Positions 30,001 to 39,146 of a stretch of DNA of 64,000 bases are shown piece after piece. The translations under genes were made by a program, and so were the position numbers. Every line of letters begins with the position of its first letter. Positions within the stretch are counted from its first letter, which is position 1. Where the stretch lies: NCBI RefSeq assembly GCF_006912135.1, contig NZ_VIRS01000010.1, forward strand, positions 124,001 through 188,000, read 5' to 3'. The stretch is from Cryptosporangium phraense (GTDB taxonomy: Bacteria; Actinomycetota; Actinomycetes; Mycobacteriales; Cryptosporangiaceae). The notes beneath the pieces are model-generated. The model was not told the DNA's origin. It ran no database searches and worked only from the letters and a program-made list of their open reading frames with translations.

Positions 30001-31671
30001 TCAGCCGGGGGAGAGCGCCGGGTCGACCGTCCTCGCGGCCAGAGCGGACGGCCAGGACCCGTGCGCGGTGATGTCCTCGGCGGTCTCCGTCGCGATCGCC
30101 TCGGTGAGGAAGCCGCGGACGGTCCGGCCGTCGGCCAGCGTCACCGTGCCGATCGTCATCGGCCGGGGGAGCCCGGCGACGAACGCGCCGAAGCCGGACG
30201 CCGAGAGCCGCCAGACCTCGCCGGCGATCGACGCGCCACCGGCCGCGCGGAGCAGGCCGGGCTTCGGGGGGACCGTGTCCAGCGCGTAGAGCCGGTAGTC
30301 GGGGGTGGTCTCGGCCCGGCCGACGCACGAGCCGCCGGCCGCGACCAGCTCGTGGTTCAGCGGATGACCCGACAGGTGGGCGCCCACGACGAACAGCTCC
30401 ACCGGCGGGTCGGCCAGCAGCTGCGCGAGCGACGCCAGCGTGCGGTCGCTGAACGCCGGTCCGGTGAGCATGACGCCGAACGGCAGCCCGTCTACCACGC
30501 CGGCCGGGACGGCCAGCGAGGCCAGGTCCAGCAGGTTCGCGAAGTTCGTGTAGCGGCCCATCCGGGCGTTCGCGCCGACCGGGTCCTCGGCGACCTGGGC
30601 CAGCGTCGGGTGCCAGGTCGTGGTCGGGGTCAGCAGCGCGGTGGTGCCGGCCAGGGCGGCCCGGCCGGCCGCGCCCAGTTCGTCCAGGCGCTGCTGGTCG
30701 CGGAAGACGTCGGCGGCGGTGAAGCGGGTGCCGCCGAGGATGATGCCGGCGACGGTCGGGTCGAGGTCGGTGCCGATGAGGTGTTGGTGGGCGGTGATGT
30801 GGTCGCCGACTCCGGCGGTCCGTTCGGCGACGAACGCGCCCTCGTAGAGCAGCGCGGCCGCCCGCAGGAGCGGGGTGACGTCCACCTCGACGATCTCGAC
30901 GCCGGCGGCCCGGAACCGGCCGACGACGTCCGCGAACGCCGAGGCCCACCCGTCGGCCAGCCCCTCGAGATGCTCGGCGGTCGGGATCGCGAGCCGATGA
31001 ACTCCCTCGACGGACGACGGCGGGGAGTCCGGGCGGGCCAGCGGGTCCAGGCCGTCCGGGCCGCTGAGCAGCTCGATCGTCCGCCGGGCCAGGCGCAGGT
31101 CCCGGGCGAACACCGTGACGCAGTCCAGGCTCCGGCAGGCCGGGACGACCCCGGTCGTCGGGATCAGGCCCTTCGTGGGCTTCACGCCGACCAGCCCGTT
31201 CAGCGCGGCCGGCACCCGGCCGCTGCCCGCGGTGTCGGTGCCCAGCGCCAGGTCGACCAGCCCCAGTGCGACGGCCACCGCCGACCCCGAGCTCGATCCG
31301 CCGGAGATCCGGGAGGCGTCGAACGCGTTGCGCACCGCCCCGTACGGGCTGCGGGTGCCGACCAGACCGGTCGCGAACTGGTCGAGGTTCGTCACGCCGA
31401 GGATCAGCGCCCCGGCCGCCCGCAGCCGCGCGACCGCGGTCGCGTCCACCGCCGGGGTGTAGGCGTAGGACGGCGCGGCCGCGGTGGTCGGCAGCCCGGC
31501 GACGTCGATGTTGCCCTTGACCGCGGCGAGCAACCCGGCCAGCGGCAGCGACGGATCGATCGTCGCCGCCTCGGCCAGCACCTCGTCCAGCGGACGCAGC
31601 GCGATCCACACCTCCGGACGATCGACCTCGGCGATCCGCGCGTACGCGGCCCGGACTCGATCGCCGATCAC
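30001..31671 (-). CDS. atzF: Allophanate hydrolase
   Basis: This 556-aa amidase-signature enzyme splits allophanate into two ammonia and two CO2. The triad is Lys52 (AAVKGN), cis-Ser127 (SGGSSSGSA) and Ser150 (GTDTAGSGRVPAA). After residue 420 or so comes the C-terminal domain of AtzF/DUR1 proteins (PPVELFVVGAHLSGHPLNHEL, then DYRLYALDTVPPKPGL and 'GEVWRLS'). Its GTG overlaps the carboxylase stop by 4 nt. It is the last enzyme of the four-gene carboxylase operon. Confidence 0.94.
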   Translation of the reverse strand: MIGDRVRAAYARIAEVDRPEVWIALRPLDEVLAEAATIDPSLPLAGLLAAVKGNIDVAGLPTTAAAPSYAYTPAVDATAVARLRAAGALILGVTNLDQFATGLVGTRSPYGAVRNAFDASRISGGSSSGSAVAVALGLVDLALGTDTAGSGRVPAALNGLVGVKPTKGLIPTTGVVPACRSLDCVTVFARDLRLARRTIELLSGPDGLDPLARPDSPPSSVEGVHRLAIPTAEHLEGLADGWASAFADVVGRFRAAGVEIVEVDVTPLLRAAALLYEGAFVAERTAGVGDHITAHQHLIGTDLDPTVAGIILGGTRFTAADVFRDQQRLDELGAAGRAALAGTTALLTPTTTWHPTLAQVAEDPVGANARMGRYTNFANLLDLASLAVPAGVVDGLPFGVMLTGPAFSDRTLASLAQLLADPPVELFVVGAHLSGHPLNHELVAAGGSCVGRAETTPDYRLYALDTVPPKPGLLRAAGGASIAGEVWRLSASGFGAFVAGLPRPMTIGTVTLADGRTVRGFLTEAIATETAEDITAHGSWPSALAARTVDPALSPG

Positions 31672-34600
31672 GCCGCCACCTCCGAGTGCACCCGCACCGC
31701 GAACAGCACCTGACCGGCCGACACCGAGTCACCGGGCGTCACGTAGATGTCCACGACCTCACCGTCCGACGGTGCCATCACCGGCGTCTCCATCTTCATC
31801 GCCTCCAGCGCCAGGATCCGTTCCCCATCGTGGACGACGTCGCCGGGCCGGGCCGAGACCTGCCAGACCGTCGCGCCGAACGGTGCGGTGACCGCGATCG
31901 CCCCCTCCGGAACCGTGACCGGGGCGACCGCCGCCGCCGGAGCCGGTTCCGGCCGCACGTCGAACTCCCCGGACGCGTGCCAGCGCGCCTTCTCGGCCGC
32001 GAACGCCTCCGCTTGCCGGGCCCGGAACCCGGCGATGGAGTCCGCGTGAGCGTCCAGAAAGGCCTGGTGGGAAGCGAGGGAGAACGAGCCGTCGGAGGTC
32101 TCGAACGAGCCCCGGCCGGCGTCGGTCTCGGCCCGCAGGTCGAGCAGTTCCTCGGCCGTCACCGGATACCACTCGATGCGGTCGAAGAACCGCAGCGCCC
32201 AGGGCCGGTCGGTGAACAGGCCGCCGCGCCGGAAGCGGTTCCAGACCTGCACCGTGCGGCCGACGAACTGGTAGCCGCCCGGCCCCTCCATGCCGTAGAT
32301 GCACAGGTAGGCGCCGCCGATGCCGACCGAGTTCTCGGCCGTCCAGGTGCGGGCCGGGTTGTACTTGGTCGTGACCAGCCGGTGCCGGGGGTCCAGCGGC
32401 GTGGCGACCGGCGCGCCCAGGTAGACGTCGCCGAGCCCGAGCACCAGGTACTGCGCGTCGAACACGGTCCGGTACACGTCGTCGACCGAGGACAGGCCGT
32501 TGATCCGGCGGATGAACTCGATGTTCCAGGGCGTCCAGGGCGCGTCGTCGCGGACCCCCGCCATGTACCGCTCGATCGCCAGCCGGGTGGCCGGGTCGTC
32601 CCAGGACAGCGGCAGGCGCACCCGCCGGGACGGCACGACGAGGTCTTCCGGCAGCCCGTCGTCCAGCTCCTGCAGCAGGCCGGTCAACCGGCTCGCGCGC
32701 CCCTCGGTGTGGACCTGGAGCGACCGGATCCCGGGCGTGAGGTCGAGGATCCCTTCCGGCCGGGCCGCCTCCAGCGCGGTCATCAGCGCGTGCACCCGCA
32801 TCCGGAGGCCGAGGTCGAGGACCTGGTCGCCGTACTCGATCAGCAGGTTGTCGTCGCCGTCGCGCCGGTAGGTGACCGACGGCCGGCCCGGCTGCGCCGG
32901 GACCCGCGCCAGAACTCCGTCGTCCCCGTCCCCGGTCGCTCCGACCAGCGTCGGGGCCGCCGCAACCGCTTCGCGGACGCGGACGAAACGGACGGTGTCC
33001 CCGGGGCGCAGCTGGCCGACCTTCCACAGCTCCCCGCTGGCGACGACGGCCGGGCAGACGAATCCGCCCAGGCTGGGACCGTCGGGCCCGAGGATGATCG
33101 GGGTGTCGCCGGTGAAGTCGATCGCGCCCACCGCGTAGGGCGTGTCGTGGATGTTCGACGGGTGCAGACCGGCCTCGCCGCCGTCGCTGCGGGCCCACTC
33201 CGGCCGGGGTCCGAGCAGGCGGACGCCGGTCCGTGCCGAGTTGAGGTGGACCTCGTAGTCGGTGGCGTAGAACGTGTCGAGAGCCGCGCGGGTGAAGAAC
33301 TCGGGCGCCGCGTGCGGGCCCTCGGTGACGCCGATCCGCCAGGTGTGGGTGTAGTCCGGGGGACGGATCCTGGGTTCGGCCGGTCCGGCCGCCAGCGTGC
33401 CGATCCGCAGCACGTCGCCGGCGTTCAGCGCGCGTCCGCCGTGGCCGCCGAAGCCGCCGAGCGTGAACGTCGAGGCGCTGCCCAGGTAGTCCGGGACGTC
33501 GATCCCGCCGCGGACGGCGACGGCCAGGCGCAGCCCCGGCCCGGGAGCGGTTCCGATGGCCAGCACCCCTCCGGCGGGCATCGGAACCGGCTCCCACATC
33601 GGCACCGGTGCGCCGTCGAGCGTCACCGGGGCCGGCGCGCCGGCGACGCAGACGGTCGTCTCCACCGAGAACCGCAGCGTCGGGCCGGTGGCCGTCACCT
33701 CCAGTCCGGGCGCCCCCTCGGGGTTGCCGACGGCCCGGTTCGCGGCCCGCAGCGACACCGGGTCGAACGGCCCCGACGGCGGCACCCCGACCTGCCAATA
33801 CCCGAGCCGGCCGGGCAGGTCCTGCACGGTGGTGAGCGCGCCGGGCTGGAGCACGTCGATCCGGGGCTCGGGGTCGGCGGTGACGTCCAGGGTGGACGTC
33901 GAGTGGGTGGCCGCGCGCAGCGGGGTGCCGTCGGCGAGGGCCCGGAGCAGGCCCAGGTTGGTGACGACCCCGTCGATGCGGGTGCCGCCGAGCGCGCGCG
34001 AGAGCCGGTCGAGGGCCGCGTCGCGGTCGGGTCCGGCGGCGACGATCTTCGCGAGCATCGGGTCGTAGTGCGGCGTCACCTCCAGGCCGGTCTCGATCCA
34101 GCCGTCGACCCGCACGTCGTCCGGGAACTGTGCCCGCGTGACCAGGCCGGTGGAGGGCGCGTTGTTCTTGTCCGGGTCCTCGGCGTACACCCGGGCCTCC
34201 ACCGCGACCCCGGCCGGCTCCCACGTCCGCGCGAAGAGCTCGTCCAGCGCGTCGCCCCGGGCCAGGCGCAGCATCGCGTCCACCAGATCGACGCCGTAGG
34301 CGAGTTCGGTCACCGGGTGCTCGACCTGCAGCCGGGTGTTGACCTCGAGGAACGAGGCCTCCTCCCGGACCGGGTCGTAGACGAACTCGACGGTCCCGGC
34401 CGACCGGTACCGGACGGACGCGGCCAGGGCCGCGGCGCTGTCCGCGATCGACGCGCGGACCGCGTCCGGGAGCGACGGCGCCGGAGCCTCCTCGATCACC
34501 TTCTGGTTGCGCCGCTGGAGCGAGCAGTCGCGGTCGCCGATCACCGCGATCCGCCCGGCCCCGTCGCCGAACAGCTGCACCTCGACGTGGCGGGCCGGTC

Positions 34601-35204
34601 GCACCAGGCGCTCCAGGAACACCCCGGCGCTGCCGAACGCGGCCGCGGCCTGCCGGGCCACCCGGTCGTAGGCCGCGCGCACCTCGGGCAGCGTGGTGCA
34701 GGCCTGCATCCCGATCCCGCCGCCACCTCCGGTGGCCTTCACCATGACCGGCAGCCCGATCGTCTCGGCCGCGGCCACGGCCTCCTCGGCCGACGCCAGC
34801 AGCCCGGTTCCCGCCATCAGGGGGACGCCCGCCCGCGCGGCCAGTTCGCGGGCGGTGTGTTTGCGGCCGAAGACCTCGATCTGCTCCGGGGTCGGGCCGA
34901 CGAACGCGAGCCCGGCGTCCTCGCAGGCCCGGGCGAACGAGACGTTCTCGGAGAGGAAGCCGTAGCCGGGGTGGATCGCGGTCGCGCCGGTCGCCGCGGC
35001 GGCCTCGAGGATCGCGTCGGTGCGCAGGTAGGAGTCGCGCGCCGGGGCCGGGCCGAGCCGGACCGCACGGTCGGCCTCCCGGACGTGCGGGGCGGCCCGG
35101 TCGGCGTCGGAGTAGACCGCGACCGTGCTGAGGCCCAGCGCGTGGGCCGACCGGATGATCCGCCGGGCGATCTCGCCCCGGTTGGCGATCAGCAGCGTGC
35201 TCAC
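31668..35204 (-). CDS. Biotin-dependent urea/guanidine carboxylase
   Basis: This 1178-aa enzyme has a biotin carboxylase part (1-450; IANRGEIARRI, ATP-binding GGGGGIGMQ, EVNTRLQVEHPVTE), a carboxyltransferase part with KipA/KipI-like modules (about 470-1000; TVQDLPGRLGYWQVGVPPSGPFD and later NPARTWTAENSVGIGG), and a biotinyl domain whose Lys1137 lies in EAMKMETPV. It carboxylates urea or guanidine at the expense of ATP. The neighbouring DUF1989 pair favours guanidine. GTG start, 4-nt overlap with the upstream gene. Confidence 0.93.
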   Translation of the reverse strand: MSTLLIANRGEIARRIIRSAHALGLSTVAVYSDADRAAPHVREADRAVRLGPAPARDSYLRTDAILEAAAATGATAIHPGYGFLSENVSFARACEDAGLAFVGPTPEQIEVFGRKHTARELAARAGVPLMAGTGLLASAEEAVAAAETIGLPVMVKATGGGGGIGMQACTTLPEVRAAYDRVARQAAAAFGSAGVFLERLVRPARHVEVQLFGDGAGRIAVIGDRDCSLQRRNQKVIEEAPAPSLPDAVRASIADSAAALAASVRYRSAGTVEFVYDPVREEASFLEVNTRLQVEHPVTELAYGVDLVDAMLRLARGDALDELFARTWEPAGVAVEARVYAEDPDKNNAPSTGLVTRAQFPDDVRVDGWIETGLEVTPHYDPMLAKIVAAGPDRDAALDRLSRALGGTRIDGVVTNLGLLRALADGTPLRAATHSTSTLDVTADPEPRIDVLQPGALTTVQDLPGRLGYWQVGVPPSGPFDPVSLRAANRAVGNPEGAPGLEVTATGPTLRFSVETTVCVAGAPAPVTLDGAPVPMWEPVPMPAGGVLAIGTAPGPGLRLAVAVRGGIDVPDYLGSASTFTLGGFGGHGGRALNAGDVLRIGTLAAGPAEPRIRPPDYTHTWRIGVTEGPHAAPEFFTRAALDTFYATDYEVHLNSARTGVRLLGPRPEWARSDGGEAGLHPSNIHDTPYAVGAIDFTGDTPIILGPDGPSLGGFVCPAVVASGELWKVGQLRPGDTVRFVRVREAVAAAPTLVGATGDGDDGVLARVPAQPGRPSVTYRRDGDDNLLIEYGDQVLDLGLRMRVHALMTALEAARPEGILDLTPGIRSLQVHTEGRASRLTGLLQELDDGLPEDLVVPSRRVRLPLSWDDPATRLAIERYMAGVRDDAPWTPWNIEFIRRINGLSSVDDVYRTVFDAQYLVLGLGDVYLGAPVATPLDPRHRLVTTKYNPARTWTAENSVGIGGAYLCIYGMEGPGGYQFVGRTVQVWNRFRRGGLFTDRPWALRFFDRIEWYPVTAEELLDLRAETDAGRGSFETSDGSFSLASHQAFLDAHADSIAGFRARQAEAFAAEKARWHASGEFDVRPEPAPAAAVAPVTVPEGAIAVTAPFGATVWQVSARPGDVVHDGERILALEAMKMETPVMAPSDGEVVDIYVTPGDSVSAGQVLFAVRVHSEVAA

Positions 35205-35827
35205 GGCGCGGTGACGATCATGCGCAGGGGGGTGGGATCGAAGTCGTTGCACGGGTTGTTCATCTGGGGGCAGTTGCTCACCAGCACGAGCACGTCCACG
35301 TCGGCCCGGATCGCGACCCGCTTGCCGGGCCCGGAGATCCCGTCGACGATGCCCAGCGTGCCGTCGGCCTCGACCGGAACGTTCATGAACCAGTTCAGGT
35401 TCGAGACGACGTCCCGGGCGCCGAGGCCGTGCCGGGCCGCCTCGGCCAGGAAGTTCTCCCGGCAGCCGTGCTGGTGGGCGGTGTGGTGGCCGTACCGGAG
35501 CGTGTTCGACTCCTTGCCGCAGGCCCCGCCGATCGTGTCCTGCCGGGCCACCTCGTTGCCGACCACGGTCATCAGCGGGTTGCCGTACTGGCTGCGCAGC
35601 ACCGTGCCCTCCCGCACGTAGGCGTTGCCCTGCCAGGTCAGCGTGTCCGGGACGCTGTACCGCTCGGTGCGGTCGGCGTCGGCGTAGATCAGGCAGTCGG
35701 CGGACTGGTTGCCGCCGACGTCGACGATCGTCAGCACGTGCCCGGCGGCGACGACGGCCGACCACGGGGCGCGGGGCTCGACGTGGTCGTCGCGGACGAG
35801 TTCTCCGGGGATGAGCGCGCCGGTCAT
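35201..35827 (-). CDS. DUF1989 protein, urea-carboxylase-associated 2 (CgdB/CgdA-type)
   Basis: This 208-aa protein has the DUF1989 fold with GHVLTIVDVGGNQSADCLIY, 'GACGKESNTLRYGHHTAHQHGCRENFL' (a cluster of Cys and His that can bind metal) and NLNWFMNVPVEADG. In Pseudomonas, two such proteins form carboxyguanidine deiminase, which turns carboxyguanidine into allophanate and ammonia. Overlaps of 4 nt on both sides place it in the operon core. Confidence 0.9.
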   Translation of the reverse strand: MTGALIPGELVRDDHVEPRAPWSAVVAAGHVLTIVDVGGNQSADCLIYADADRTERYSVPDTLTWQGNAYVREGTVLRSQYGNPLMTVVGNEVARQDTIGGACGKESNTLRYGHHTAHQHGCRENFLAEAARHGLGARDVVSNLNWFMNVPVEADGTLGIVDGISGPGKRVAIRADVDVLVLVSNCPQMNNPCNDFDPTPLRMIVTAP

Positions 35828-36645
35828 AGTCCTCGGGCCTCCGCGTAGTCGACCGTGTTCAGGTAGGCCCGGTGCGTCTCCGGGGTGGTGGCGTCGTCCG
35901 GGCGGGTCGGCGTCGCTCTCCAGGCGTGCACGCGCAACGGGCCGACCGTGAACGCCGCGCGCGGGTCGAGCGGGTGGGCCGTGTTGGCGATCAGGACGAT
36001 CAGCGGCAGCTCGGCGAGCAGGTCGACCTCGGCCGGTCCGGCGCTGCCGAGCCAGCGGAAGCTCCCGTCCTCCTCGACCCGGACGCCCTGGAAGAACGAG
36101 ACGCTCGGCGGGAGGTCCCGCGGGGTCAGGTCGTGCTTGGCCGCGGCCAGCGTGAACAGTGCCCGTCCGGACGGGCTGGGCCCCTCGGGTGCGGCGTCGC
36201 CGTACTTCCGCTCGTTCCAGGCGTCGGACGACGTCCCGCAGAACGCGTCGTGCCGGGCGGACGTGTCGGCGACGATCGTGGCCAGCACGCGGCCGTCGCC
36301 GGAGAGCAGTGGGTGCCCGGCGCCGAGGTAGGCCTGCCAGGGGATCTTCTGGGTGTCGGCGACGTTGAGCCGTTCCCACGGGGCGACCGCGGAGTGGACG
36401 AGGACGTGCGCGCAGGCGTCGCCGGTGACGTCGGTGAGCCGGATCCGGGTGCCGCGGGCCACGACCTTCGACGTGTAGCCGCCCGGCGCGACGGTCTCGG
36501 CCCAGGTGAGCGTGGTGGGGTCGATGCCCGGCGGGACGAACGGCGAGGTCGAGGCGGGCAGGTAGGGCATCCAGTCCGCGCTCGTGCCGCCCTGGGCGCG
36601 GGCGTCGTCGCGGGCGGCGAACACAGTGGACGTATCGCGGGTCAT
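35824..36645 (-). CDS. DUF1989 protein, urea-carboxylase-associated 1 (CgdA/CgdB-type)
   Basis: The 273-aa partner DUF1989 protein has GTRIRLTDVTGDACAHVLVHSA, 'DTSARHDAFCGTSSDAWNERKYGD' and 'SVSFFQGVRVEEDGSFRW'. As in the partner, a Cys/His set lies in the middle. It is the first gene of the operon and its ATG follows the operator by 12 nt, leaving little leader. It overlaps the second DUF1989 gene by 4 nt, which fits equal production of both subunits. Confidence 0.9.
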   Translation of the reverse strand: MTRDTSTVFAARDDARAQGGTSADWMPYLPASTSPFVPPGIDPTTLTWAETVAPGGYTSKVVARGTRIRLTDVTGDACAHVLVHSAVAPWERLNVADTQKIPWQAYLGAGHPLLSGDGRVLATIVADTSARHDAFCGTSSDAWNERKYGDAAPEGPSPSGRALFTLAAAKHDLTPRDLPPSVSFFQGVRVEEDGSFRWLGSAGPAEVDLLAELPLIVLIANTAHPLDPRAAFTVGPLRVHAWRATPTRPDDATTPETHRAYLNTVDYAEARGL

Positions 36646-36657
36646 GCGGCGCCCCCA

Positions 36658-36687
36658 GGTGATTTCTGTCGACTGACAGAAATCACC
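36658..36687. promoter_or_regulatory. Perfect 13-bp inverted-repeat operator of the carboxylase operon
   Basis: GGTGATTTCTGTC and GACAGAAATCACC form perfect 13-bp arms with the spacer GACT. The repeat ends 12 nt before the start of the first operon gene, so a bound repressor would cover the transcription start region. A degenerate copy with the same spacing lies upstream of the APC permease. The TetR gene lies between the two sites. No ykkC riboswitch sequence is present here. Confidence 0.8.
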
Positions 36688-36796
36688 CTGCGGTCCGGTC
36701 GTTTCGCGGGCGTTTCCCGGTTGCTACGTTCCCGGGCCCGCGGTTGGTGGGTGGGCGCGCGGTTTCGCGGTTCGGCGGGCGCGGGGCGGCGCCGGG

Positions 36797-37465
36797 TCAG
36801 ACGGGGGTGGCCGCTGGGGTGAGGGCGGCCAGCAGGGCCGCGCCGTCGGCGGCGGCGTCGGCGGCGGCCGGGCCGGTGAGGCCGGCGATGCCCAGGCAGG
36901 TGCGGGCGATCTCGTCGGCCAGGCCGGGCCGCGGTGCCAGCGTGGTCACCATCTCGACGACGTGCAGGCACGCGGAGCCCAGGACGTCGGCCCCGGCCGG
37001 GGCGGTGGCTGAGGCGGCTCCGGCCAGCTCCGAGTACGTGGTGAGCAACTGGGCGCGGTGCGCGCGGAACGACGCGAAAGCGGGCGCCGTCCGCACTTCC
37101 GGAGCCATGTAGAGCGTGGCCACTCCCAGCGGCCCGGCCTGCAGCGTGCCGACGTCCCGGACCGCCAGCGCGTACAGCGCCCCCGCCGCCGACGGAGCCG
37201 CGGCCCGGATCGCGTCGACCAGGTCGAGCGTCGGACGCACCGAGGCCTCGAGCAGCTCCAGCAGGATCTCGTCCTTGCCCGGGAAGTAGTAGTACAGCGA
37301 GGCCTGCCGGACGCCGACCCGCTCGGCGATCGCCCGGGTGGACGTCGCCGCGAACCCGGACTCGCCGAACAGCGCCGCGGCCGCGTCGAGGATTTCCTGC
37401 CGGGGCGTCCGGCCGGAGTCCTGGGACCCGCGCGCCCGCGGACGCCCGGCGCGGTTGGTACTCAC
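36797..37465 (-). CDS. TetR family regulator of the carboxylase/permease genes
   Basis: This 222-aa repressor has an N-terminal helix-turn-helix (about 22-70; ILDAAAALFGESGFAATSTRAIAERVGVRQASLYYYFPGKDEIL split over the usual three helices) and a helical ligand domain. It lies between the carboxylase operon and the divergent permease, and each target carries a 24-30 bp dyad near its start. The ligand may be guanidine, urea or a product; this is inference. GTG start. Confidence 0.88.
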   Translation of the reverse strand: MSTNRAGRPRARGSQDSGRTPRQEILDAAAALFGESGFAATSTRAIAERVGVRQASLYYYFPGKDEILLELLEASVRPTLDLVDAIRAAAPSAAGALYALAVRDVGTLQAGPLGVATLYMAPEVRTAPAFASFRAHRAQLLTTYSELAGAASATAPAGADVLGSACLHVVEMVTTLAPRPGLADEIARTCLGIAGLTGPAAADAAADGAALLAALTPAATPV

Positions 37466-37554
37466 AGGGGGAATGCTGCCACGGGCCCCCGGTCATCGGG
37501 ATTTAACCGGCCGGGGACGTCGCGTGGAACACACCCGCCCCACGCTCAGGGCCA

Positions 37555-37578
37555 AATACCTGTCGCCCGACAGAAATC
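37555..37578. promoter_or_regulatory. Second copy of the TetR-type operator, upstream of the permease
   Basis: The left arm AATACCTGTC and the right arm GACAGAAATC flank a 4-nt spacer (GCCC). The right arm is identical to ten bases of the site at 36658 and the left arm matches at seven of ten. It ends 17 nt before the permease start, almost the same distance as the first site from its gene. Confidence 0.68.
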
Positions 37579-37595
37579 GGCCCGGAGGTGGAGTC

Positions 37596-39146
37596 GTGAG
37601 CACTACCACGACGACGAGAAGCTCGACCGGCTACGAGCAGGAGCTGCACCGGGGAGTCGGCACGTTCGCGTCGTTCGCCGCCGGCTTCTCGTTCGTCTCG
37701 ATCCTGACCACGGTGTTCCAGCTGTTCGGCCTGGGCTTCCTGCTCGGTGGCGCGTCGTTCTTCTGGGCCTGGCCGGCGGTGTTCGTCGGCCAGTTGTTCG
37801 TCGCGCTGTGCTTCGCCGAGCTGGCCGGGCGATGGCCGGTGTCGGGCGCGATCTTCCAGTGGTCGAGCCGGTTGGCCGGTACGTCCTGGGGCTGGTTCAC
37901 CGGCTGGATCATGATCGTCGGACAGATCCTGACCGTGGCCGTCGCCGCGATCGCGATCCAGGCCGTGCTGCCGGCCATCTGGTCGGGCTTCCAGCTGGTG
38001 GGCGGCTCGGACGCCGACCCGTCGATCCTGTCGGAGACCGGCGCGAAGAACGCGGTCGTGCTCGGCATCATCCTGCTGGCGATCACGACGCTGGTGAACA
38101 TCCTCGGGATCCGGCAGATGGCCGCGACGACCAGCGTCGGCGTCGCGGTCGAGATCGTCGGGGTGGTGATCCTGATCGGAGTGTTGTTCGCGCTGTCCGA
38201 GCGTGGCCCGTCGGTGGTGCTGCACACCACCGGCTGGGAGGGGACCGGCAACTACTTCTTCGCCTGGCTGGCGTCGTCGCTGATGGCCGCGTACGTGATG
38301 GTCGGGTTCGACTCGGCCGGCGAGCTGGCCGAGGAGACCCACTCGCCGCGCAAGACGACCCCGAAGACGATCATCCGGGCGTTGACCACGTCGGGCCTGG
38401 GCGGCGGGCTGCTGATCCTGGGCGCGCTGATGGCCGCGCCGAGCCTCACCGACGGCAACCTGTCGTCGCTCGGCCTGTCGTGGGTGATCACCGAGCGGCT
38501 CGGCGACGTGTTCGGCCGCCTGCTGCTGTGCTGCGTCGCGGTCGCGGTCTTCGCCTGCACGCTCGCGGTGCAGACGTCCGGCGCCCGGATGACGTACTCG
38601 ATGGCCCGCGAGGGCGCGCTGCCGTTCTCGAAGGCGCTGGCCCGGGTCTCACCCCGCACCGGCACGCCGGTGATCACGTCGATCGTGGTCGGCGTGGGCG
38701 CGGCCGTGGCGCTCGCGGTCAACGTCAACTCGACGACGATCTTCACCGCGCTCTCCAGCATCTGCATCGCGATGCTCTACATCGCCTATCTCGGCGTCAC
38801 GCTGCCGCTGCTCGTCGTCCGGATCAAGCACCGGAACACCGACCACTTCCCGGCCGGCCACGACGAGGACGGCAAGCCGCTGTTCTCGATGGGCCGCTTC
38901 GGCATCCCGGTGAACGTCGCCGCGGTGATCTACCAGGCGATCATGATCGTCAACCTGATGTGGCCGCGGCCGGAGATCTACGACCTGTCCACCGACGGGA
39001 ACTGGCTGCTCCAGTACAGCGCGGTGCTGTTCGTCGGGGCGGTCGTCGCGGTGGGAGCCGCCTACTTCGGCTGGAAGCGACTGCACCACCGCATCGACCT
39101 GCCGCACATCCCGCACACCCACCTGGTGGCGGAGGACGCCGCCTAG
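37596..39146 (+). CDS. APC-superfamily permease, urea-carboxylase-region type
   Basis: This 516-aa permease has about twelve membrane helices and the APC pattern: GTFASFAAGFSFVSILTTVFQLF in helix 1, 'CFAELAGRWPVSGAIFQWSSRLAG' after helix 2 and 'VGFDSAGELAEETHSPRKTTPKTI' before helix 7. Permeases of this type are known next to urea-carboxylase clusters. GTG at 37596 follows GGAGG and places the operator just upstream. It probably imports the nitrogen compound used by the operon. Confidence 0.9.
   Translation: MSTTTTTRSSTGYEQELHRGVGTFASFAAGFSFVSILTTVFQLFGLGFLLGGASFFWAWPAVFVGQLFVALCFAELAGRWPVSGAIFQWSSRLAGTSWGWFTGWIMIVGQILTVAVAAIAIQAVLPAIWSGFQLVGGSDADPSILSETGAKNAVVLGIILLAITTLVNILGIRQMAATTSVGVAVEIVGVVILIGVLFALSERGPSVVLHTTGWEGTGNYFFAWLASSLMAAYVMVGFDSAGELAEETHSPRKTTPKTIIRALTTSGLGGGLLILGALMAAPSLTDGNLSSLGLSWVITERLGDVFGRLLLCCVAVAVFACTLAVQTSGARMTYSMAREGALPFSKALARVSPRTGTPVITSIVVGVGAAVALAVNVNSTTIFTALSSICIAMLYIAYLGVTLPLLVVRIKHRNTDHFPAGHDEDGKPLFSMGRFGIPVNVAAVIYQAIMIVNLMWPRPEIYDLSTDGNWLLQYSAVLFVGAVVAVGAAYFGWKRLHHRIDLPHIPHTHLVAEDAA

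Follow-up and report, generated by a model that had tools for sequence, protein, structure and literature searches.

Genes and features of the locus

In the window, the whole 64-kb stretch of DNA that was analysed, a four-gene operon and a TetR-family regulator gene are read on the minus strand, a permease gene is read divergently, and palindromes lie before the operon and before the permease. The features, by position in the window, are as follows.

30001..31671, minus strand: allophanate hydrolase, with a 4-nt overlap with the carboxylase (NF006043, 712 bits; PF01425, PF21986)
31668..35204, minus strand: urea/guanidine carboxylase (TIGR02712, 1740 bits, cut-off 1304)
35201..35827, minus strand: UAAP2, DUF1989 protein, carboxyguanidine deiminase subunit, with a 4-nt overlap with UAAP1 (TIGR03424, 308 bits, cut-off 284.7)
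35824..36645, minus strand: UAAP1, DUF1989 protein, carboxyguanidine deiminase subunit (TIGR03425, 275.8 bits, cut-off 206)
36658..36687, no strand: operator 1, GGTGATTTCTGTC-GACT-GACAGAAATCACC, 13-nt arms 100% complementary, 4-nt spacer
36701..36727, minus strand: candidate GlnR site GTAGC-n6-GAAAC-n6-GAAAC, predicted, 13 bp upstream of operator 1
36797..37465, minus strand: AmtR-type TetR-family repressor P0001, 222 aa (PF00440; PDB and fold matches)
37555..37578, no strand: operator 2, AATACCTGTC-GCCC-GACAGAAATC, 17 nt before the permease GTG
37596..39146, plus strand: APC-family permease of the 'urea carboxylase system' type, GTG start at 37596 (TIGR03428, PF13520)

The operon runs in the order UAAP1, UAAP2, carboxylase and allophanate hydrolase, each neighbouring pair sharing 4 nt, and all four proteins exceed the cut-offs of their curated families (TIGR03425, TIGR03424, TIGR02712 and NF006043). 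The start of the carboxylase is taken as the GTG that overlaps the UAAP2 stop, a codon choice that we infer from the overlap. The permease matched TIGR03428 with E=1.5e-194 at 647 bits, which is under the model cut-off of 740; it is likely a guanidine importer, import itself being what we infer for it. Schneider et al. reportedly identified in 2020 the DUF1989 pair UAAP1/UAAP2 as carboxyguanidine deiminase, and both subunits adjoin the carboxylase and allophanate hydrolase genes here. Guanidine is broken down by the carboxylase, the carboxyguanidine deiminase and the allophanate hydrolase in that order (PMC12186494), and by analogy with this enzymology the gene set is one for the degradation of guanidine.

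Guanidine carboxylases carry an aspartate where urea carboxylases carry an asparagine (PMC12186494). In the window carboxylase, D693 aligns with Asn 1330 of the Kluyveromyces lactis urea enzyme, the putative specificity position, and Asp stands there in 117 of 121 carboxylase relatives. This Asp backs guanidine use as a supportive point only, since the identity of the aligned position with the published one is assumed and three diverged actinobacterial enzymes (L173, L174 and L155) have Met at this place, guanidine-I riboswitches preceding two of the three. The carboxylase of another locus, L043, has the urea-like Asn, and its operon still holds both deiminase genes, AmtR and a box with the exact core.

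Operators, regulator and their conservation

The initial annotation had described a perfect 13-bp inverted repeat, its arms 4 nt apart, 12 nt ahead of the operon start, a second, degenerate copy 17 nt before the permease, and a TetR gene between the two. Coordinates and sequence agree with the first statement, operator 1 lying 12 nt from the ATG of UAAP1 (start 36645, minus), and the coordinates likewise place the TetR gene (36797-37465, minus) between operators 1 and 2. The second site also stands where it had been put, whereas its description as degenerate holds only relative to site 1 and is misleading, because operator 2 fits the family consensus better: with a weight matrix built from 55 related operators it scored 30.9 bits against 22.6 bits for operator 1, the next-best position in the window reaching 12.7. 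As it sits in the divergent region between the TetR gene and the permease, operator 2 could also serve autoregulation.

Both sites are rare. A search for GATTTCTGTCN4GACAGAAATC with at most 3 mismatches gave 2 matches in the 64-kb window and 0 in 100 shuffles of it, and over the 8.46-Mb genome operators 1 and 2 were again the only matches; they are also the only exact genomic matches to the wider pattern TWYCTGTCN4GACAGRWA. A 1-mismatch match considered as a third genomic operator (G000:C27:89330-89349) falls inside a polysaccharide-biosynthesis tyrosine kinase-like reading frame and was judged to be due to chance. In a genome of the same genus (G012, locus L177) operator 1 is identical at all 30 bases including the spacer, in surrounding intergenic DNA that has diverged, and the core of operator 2 is kept with a different spacer.

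The N-terminal helix-turn-helix domain of the regulator was matched by PF00440 (67.2 bits, cut-off 24, E=1e-18), while the NCBIfam names available for TetR proteins (ScbR, RutR and others) all fell far under their cut-offs. The best PDB sequence match was 5E57, the M. smegmatis AmtR (E=2.6e-29); AmtR chains from M. smegmatis and C. glutamicum spanned E values of 1.9e-24 to 2.6e-29, so that even the weakest of them beat the next TetR protein (1e-11) by more than 12 orders of magnitude. The AlphaFold model, for which 43 relatives were supplied, had a mean pLDDT of 92.7, and in a Foldseek search with it AmtR chains filled the top 14 places. By sequence and by fold, the window TetR protein is an AmtR-type repressor.

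The conservation of the operators was analysed in 80 clusters with a related UAAP2, at loci of up to 14.6 kb. The exact core CTGTCN4GACAG was found in 55 of the 80, once per locus and just before the first gene, and a near match occupied the same place in 19 more; with 3 clusters left out as unassessable, their contigs beginning at UAAP1, the box precedes the first gene in 74/77. That first gene is the permease, or UAAP1 where the TetR gene is divergent, and the consensus of the related operators is ATACCTGTC-N4-GACAGGTAT. The remaining boxless clusters (L060, L068 and L113) also have no adjacent AmtR gene. AmtR is linked here to the permease-urf1-urf2-carboxylase-amidase cluster, and this linkage is kept in relatives.

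A separate class-wide sample of 394 genomes contained 44 loci with a UAAP2 over cut-off, and the box was present at 39 of these, four of them weak (10.5-12.2 bits); the matrix control on these loci, lenient in that the top six positions were removed, gave no score above 8 bits beyond the six best positions per locus. The repeats are thus kept beside these genes in both samples. The five boxless loci comprised those of G365 and G316, which have guanidine-I upstream, L154 and L159, which have no carboxylase gene, and L155, on a 5-kb contig. L189, an AmtR locus of the same order that lies outside the 44, showed no box by the weight matrix.

Several further arrangements were seen. L060 and L068 (both Jiangella), L154 and L159 have UAAP1, UAAP2 and allophanate hydrolase, with carboxylase, AmtR and box absent. 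Family f14 (L021 1341-1364; L187 8356-8379) seems to rely on a shifted dyad, AATTTCGATC-N4-GACCGAAATT, beside its AmtR gene, possibly reflecting a change of operator specificity. Three loci of one genus of the same order (g9; L184, L185 and L186) hold AmtR genes with their own TTTCTGTC-N4-GACAGAAA boxes and no guanidine genes within 15-16 kb.

The proposal that a shared operator places the operon and the divergent permease under one TetR protein is supported by the rarity of the operators, by their conservation and by the match of the regulator to the AmtR family, and, by analogy with its relatives, AmtR-type repression of both units through operators 1 and 2 is very probable. A dimer of the window AmtR would bind operator 1, immediately ahead of where ribosomes bind for the UAAP1-UAAP2-carboxylase-allophanate hydrolase operon, and operator 2, in the gap that separates the amtR gene from the permease, and would keep the enzymes, the importer and probably itself at a low level until an inducer supplied by import or metabolism released it. 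The likeliest inducer would be guanidinium, with an intermediate of the pathway as the second choice. Upstream, a GlnR-like activator site would add control by nitrogen starvation; repression, binding, autoregulation and the GlnR input are all carried over from relatives.

For this last input, predicted sites resembling the GlnR box gTnAC-n6-GaAAC agree at 7/8 positions before the operon (36712-36727) and at 6/8 before the permease, and the GAAAC-n6-GAAAC part of the candidate site is kept in G012. GlnR-like half-site pairs upstream of the AmtR box agree at 8/8 in 23 of 74 regions of relatives, compared with approximately none in shuffles. Since such pairs occur far above chance in relatives and a 7/8 candidate is present here, an input from nitrogen starvation is likely.

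Guanidine riboswitches and the history of the locus

No match was found by Rfam in the 64-kb window at gathering thresholds, and at E≤10 the intergenic regions gave nothing meaningful and no guanidine class. Guanidine-I and -II were without a match anywhere in the genome, and no guanidine-I, -II or -III aptamer was found before the operon or the permease. The covariance models thus agree with the initial annotation that the locus has no ykkC riboswitch. Riboswitch control is usual for the pathway elsewhere (PMC12186494), but the chance that such an element controls this operon and was missed is close to nil, as the same models pick up guanidine-I upstream of two clusters, those of G365 and G316, and guanidine-III at another place in this genome; on the strength of these searches it was rejected. 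Hardly more probable is the reading of the palindromes as RNA or terminator hairpins instead of operators. Site 1 does follow the stop codon of the TetR gene and could form a hairpin in RNA, but the palindromes match the published AmtR site, they have no Rfam match, and the motif precedes the first gene across differing layouts, among them those in which it stands ahead of the permease and no gene runs into it. A terminator at site 1 was rejected because no T run follows it and because the motif is wrongly placed for a terminator in relatives.

The riboswitch operons of G365 and G316 have neither AmtR nor box, and the carboxylases of these two actinobacterial guanidine-I loci are of a diverged type, 48-51% identical. 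In the class-wide sample, guanidine-I was found at 0/39 boxed loci; that both riboswitches should fall by chance among the 5 boxless of 44 loci has a probability of 10/946, or ~0.011 (Fisher's exact test). When the search for riboswitch control was widened to the phylum, only three more clusters came in from beyond the class (L202, L203 and L204), and in these neither AmtR or box nor guanidine-I was found. The split is therefore not simply one between AmtR and riboswitch, and a further type of control exists outside the class.

Guanidine-III scored above cut-off in 27 of 47 genomes, this one included, and none was found at UAAP2 operons in the 47-genome set. In the present genome it lies at G000:C27:34376-34441, directly before a gene for a SugE/Gdx-type SMR exporter (riboswitch and gene together, L190 2377-2771), which is followed in L190 by an adenosine deaminase gene; an exporter of this type was also found beside guanidine-III in 5/5 other loci examined. 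The earlier suggestion of a protein sensor in place of a riboswitch accordingly holds for this operon and does not extend to the genome as a whole, and guanidine export under RNA control and guanidine use under protein control appear to coexist in the cell. In Kineococcus indalonis (L037 13332-13631) guanidine-III and its SMR exporter are convergent with, and adjoin, the AmtR-guanidine operon.

Trees were used to follow the descent of the parts. In those of the TetR protein, the carboxylase and UAAP2, the sequences from the window and from its same-genus partner fall beside Kineococcus (support 100/99, 100/99 and 88/85), whereas in the permease tree the pair falls with other species of the genus and Actinoplanes relatives (100/100), far from Kineococcus. 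The other species of the genus have a single operon with the permease first, AmtR last and one box. Judged from these phylogenies, the locus (window 30001-39146; compared with L177, L175, L176 and L037) is a mosaic of a Kineococcus-like operon with its AmtR and a genus-native permease, and a horizontal replacement beside the resident permease is likely. The split layout and the second operator would follow from a catabolic operon, together with AmtR, having been placed beside the resident permease.

Candidate inducers and relation to known AmtR systems

Among 99 AmtR relatives, residues D104, Y119, E123, R137 and Y144 of the ligand-binding domain are invariant, whereas corynebacterial AmtRs have Glu, Ile/Thr or a gap, and Phe at 104, 123 and 144. 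As a lead taken from the alignment, the retention of D104, E123 and Y144 would fit a cation-binding pocket where guanidine is used; the invariant residues could also be structural rather than ligand contacts. Sensing of guanidine by AmtR is plausible. A guanidine-linked input is favoured because the operon holds both deiminase subunits and because M. smegmatis AmtR bound as before in the presence of urea or amino acids at 0.5-5 mM (PMC4222082). We put guanidine itself as the AmtR ligand here at slightly short of an even chance. Held more tentatively still is the wider proposal, that in these actinobacteria AmtR is a transcription factor that senses guanidinium, which would make it the first guanidine switch made of protein; it would serve import and breakdown while the guanidine-III riboswitch of the same cell runs export.

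TetR repressors of catabolic operons often answer to an intermediate, and the inducer could be another small molecule, namely allophanate, carboxyguanidine, urea or a substituted guanidine. L043, with its Asn where 117 relatives have Asp, keeps AmtR and box, which fits a signal common to the breakdown of urea and guanidine. Against urea and amino acids stands their failure with M. smegmatis AmtR; for allophanate and carboxyguanidine as AmtR effectors no test was found in the accessible literature. An inducer of this kind is rather unlikely, if a serious contender. Distinctly less probable is that AmtR is not a small-molecule sensor at all, adenylylated GlnK releasing it and the operon reading nitrogen status. 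The AmtR of C. glutamicum, a true homologue, is believed to be released by GlnK and has no known small effector (PMC8864220), but D104, E123 and Y144 are retained by the AmtRs that go with these operons and not by the corynebacterial proteins, and the regulon here consists of two sites at one locus as opposed to dozens. Guanidine remains the preferred candidate among these.

If guanidine is the trigger, AmtR would be the first protein to act as a switch for guanidine, whose sensors known to date are all RNA switches, and one cell would use RNA for guanidine export and a protein for guanidine use. Transcription factors that bind guanidine are named in a 2025 review as a possible discovery of future work. 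As effectors of AmtR, urea and amino acids had failed in 2013 (PMC4222082), in a test that dates from when the AmtR targets were thought to serve urea. No test of guanidine as an AmtR effector, and no link of the AmtR 'urea' operon to guanidine, was found in a literature search confined largely to open-access papers, so that absence is not proof. Taken together, the work on AmtR and that on guanidine point to a candidate sensor for which the operator and the structure of a homologue (5E57) are known and the proposed ligand is cheap.

The shared-operator wiring is not new. Jessberger et al. (2013) reported that in ten actinobacteria amtR occurs together with precisely this set of genes, and that M. 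smegmatis AmtR binds upstream of the permease gene, represses the set, then called 'urea' genes, and is autoregulated, nitrogen control of the set depending on GlnR (PMC4222082). A consensus had also been published: the 22-bp sequence TAtCTGTCa-n2-cGACAGATAT is given for Streptomyces and relatives by Chen et al. (2013), as cited in PMC8864220. Core, spacing and symmetry of this S. avermitilis-type consensus are as in both operators here; the outer arm of operator 1 differs, TTTCTGTC/GACAGAAA in place of TATCTGTC/GACAGATA, and the same arm variant is found in other actinobacterial clusters.

Of the known systems, that of M. smegmatis MSMEG_4300 (5E57; regulon msmeg_2184-2189) is the closest, being the best match in both sequence and fold. 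Its targets are alike (permease, urf1, urf2, 'urea carboxylase' and amidase) and form a small local regulon with GlnR input; in M. smegmatis, however, amtR is remote from its targets, whereas here it lies inside the locus between two operators with the permease divergent. The C. glutamicum AmtR (5DXZ, 5DY0, 5MQQ) is a homologous TetR protein with a like fold, but it is a global, GlnK-released regulator of more than 30 genes with the site CTAT-N6-ATAG, and it differs at D104, E123 and Y144. With the operons behind guanidine-I and -II riboswitches the locus has the pathway in common (carboxylase, carboxyguanidine deiminase, allophanate hydrolase and importer; PMC12186494), and in contrast to their control by RNA it carries AmtR and its box.
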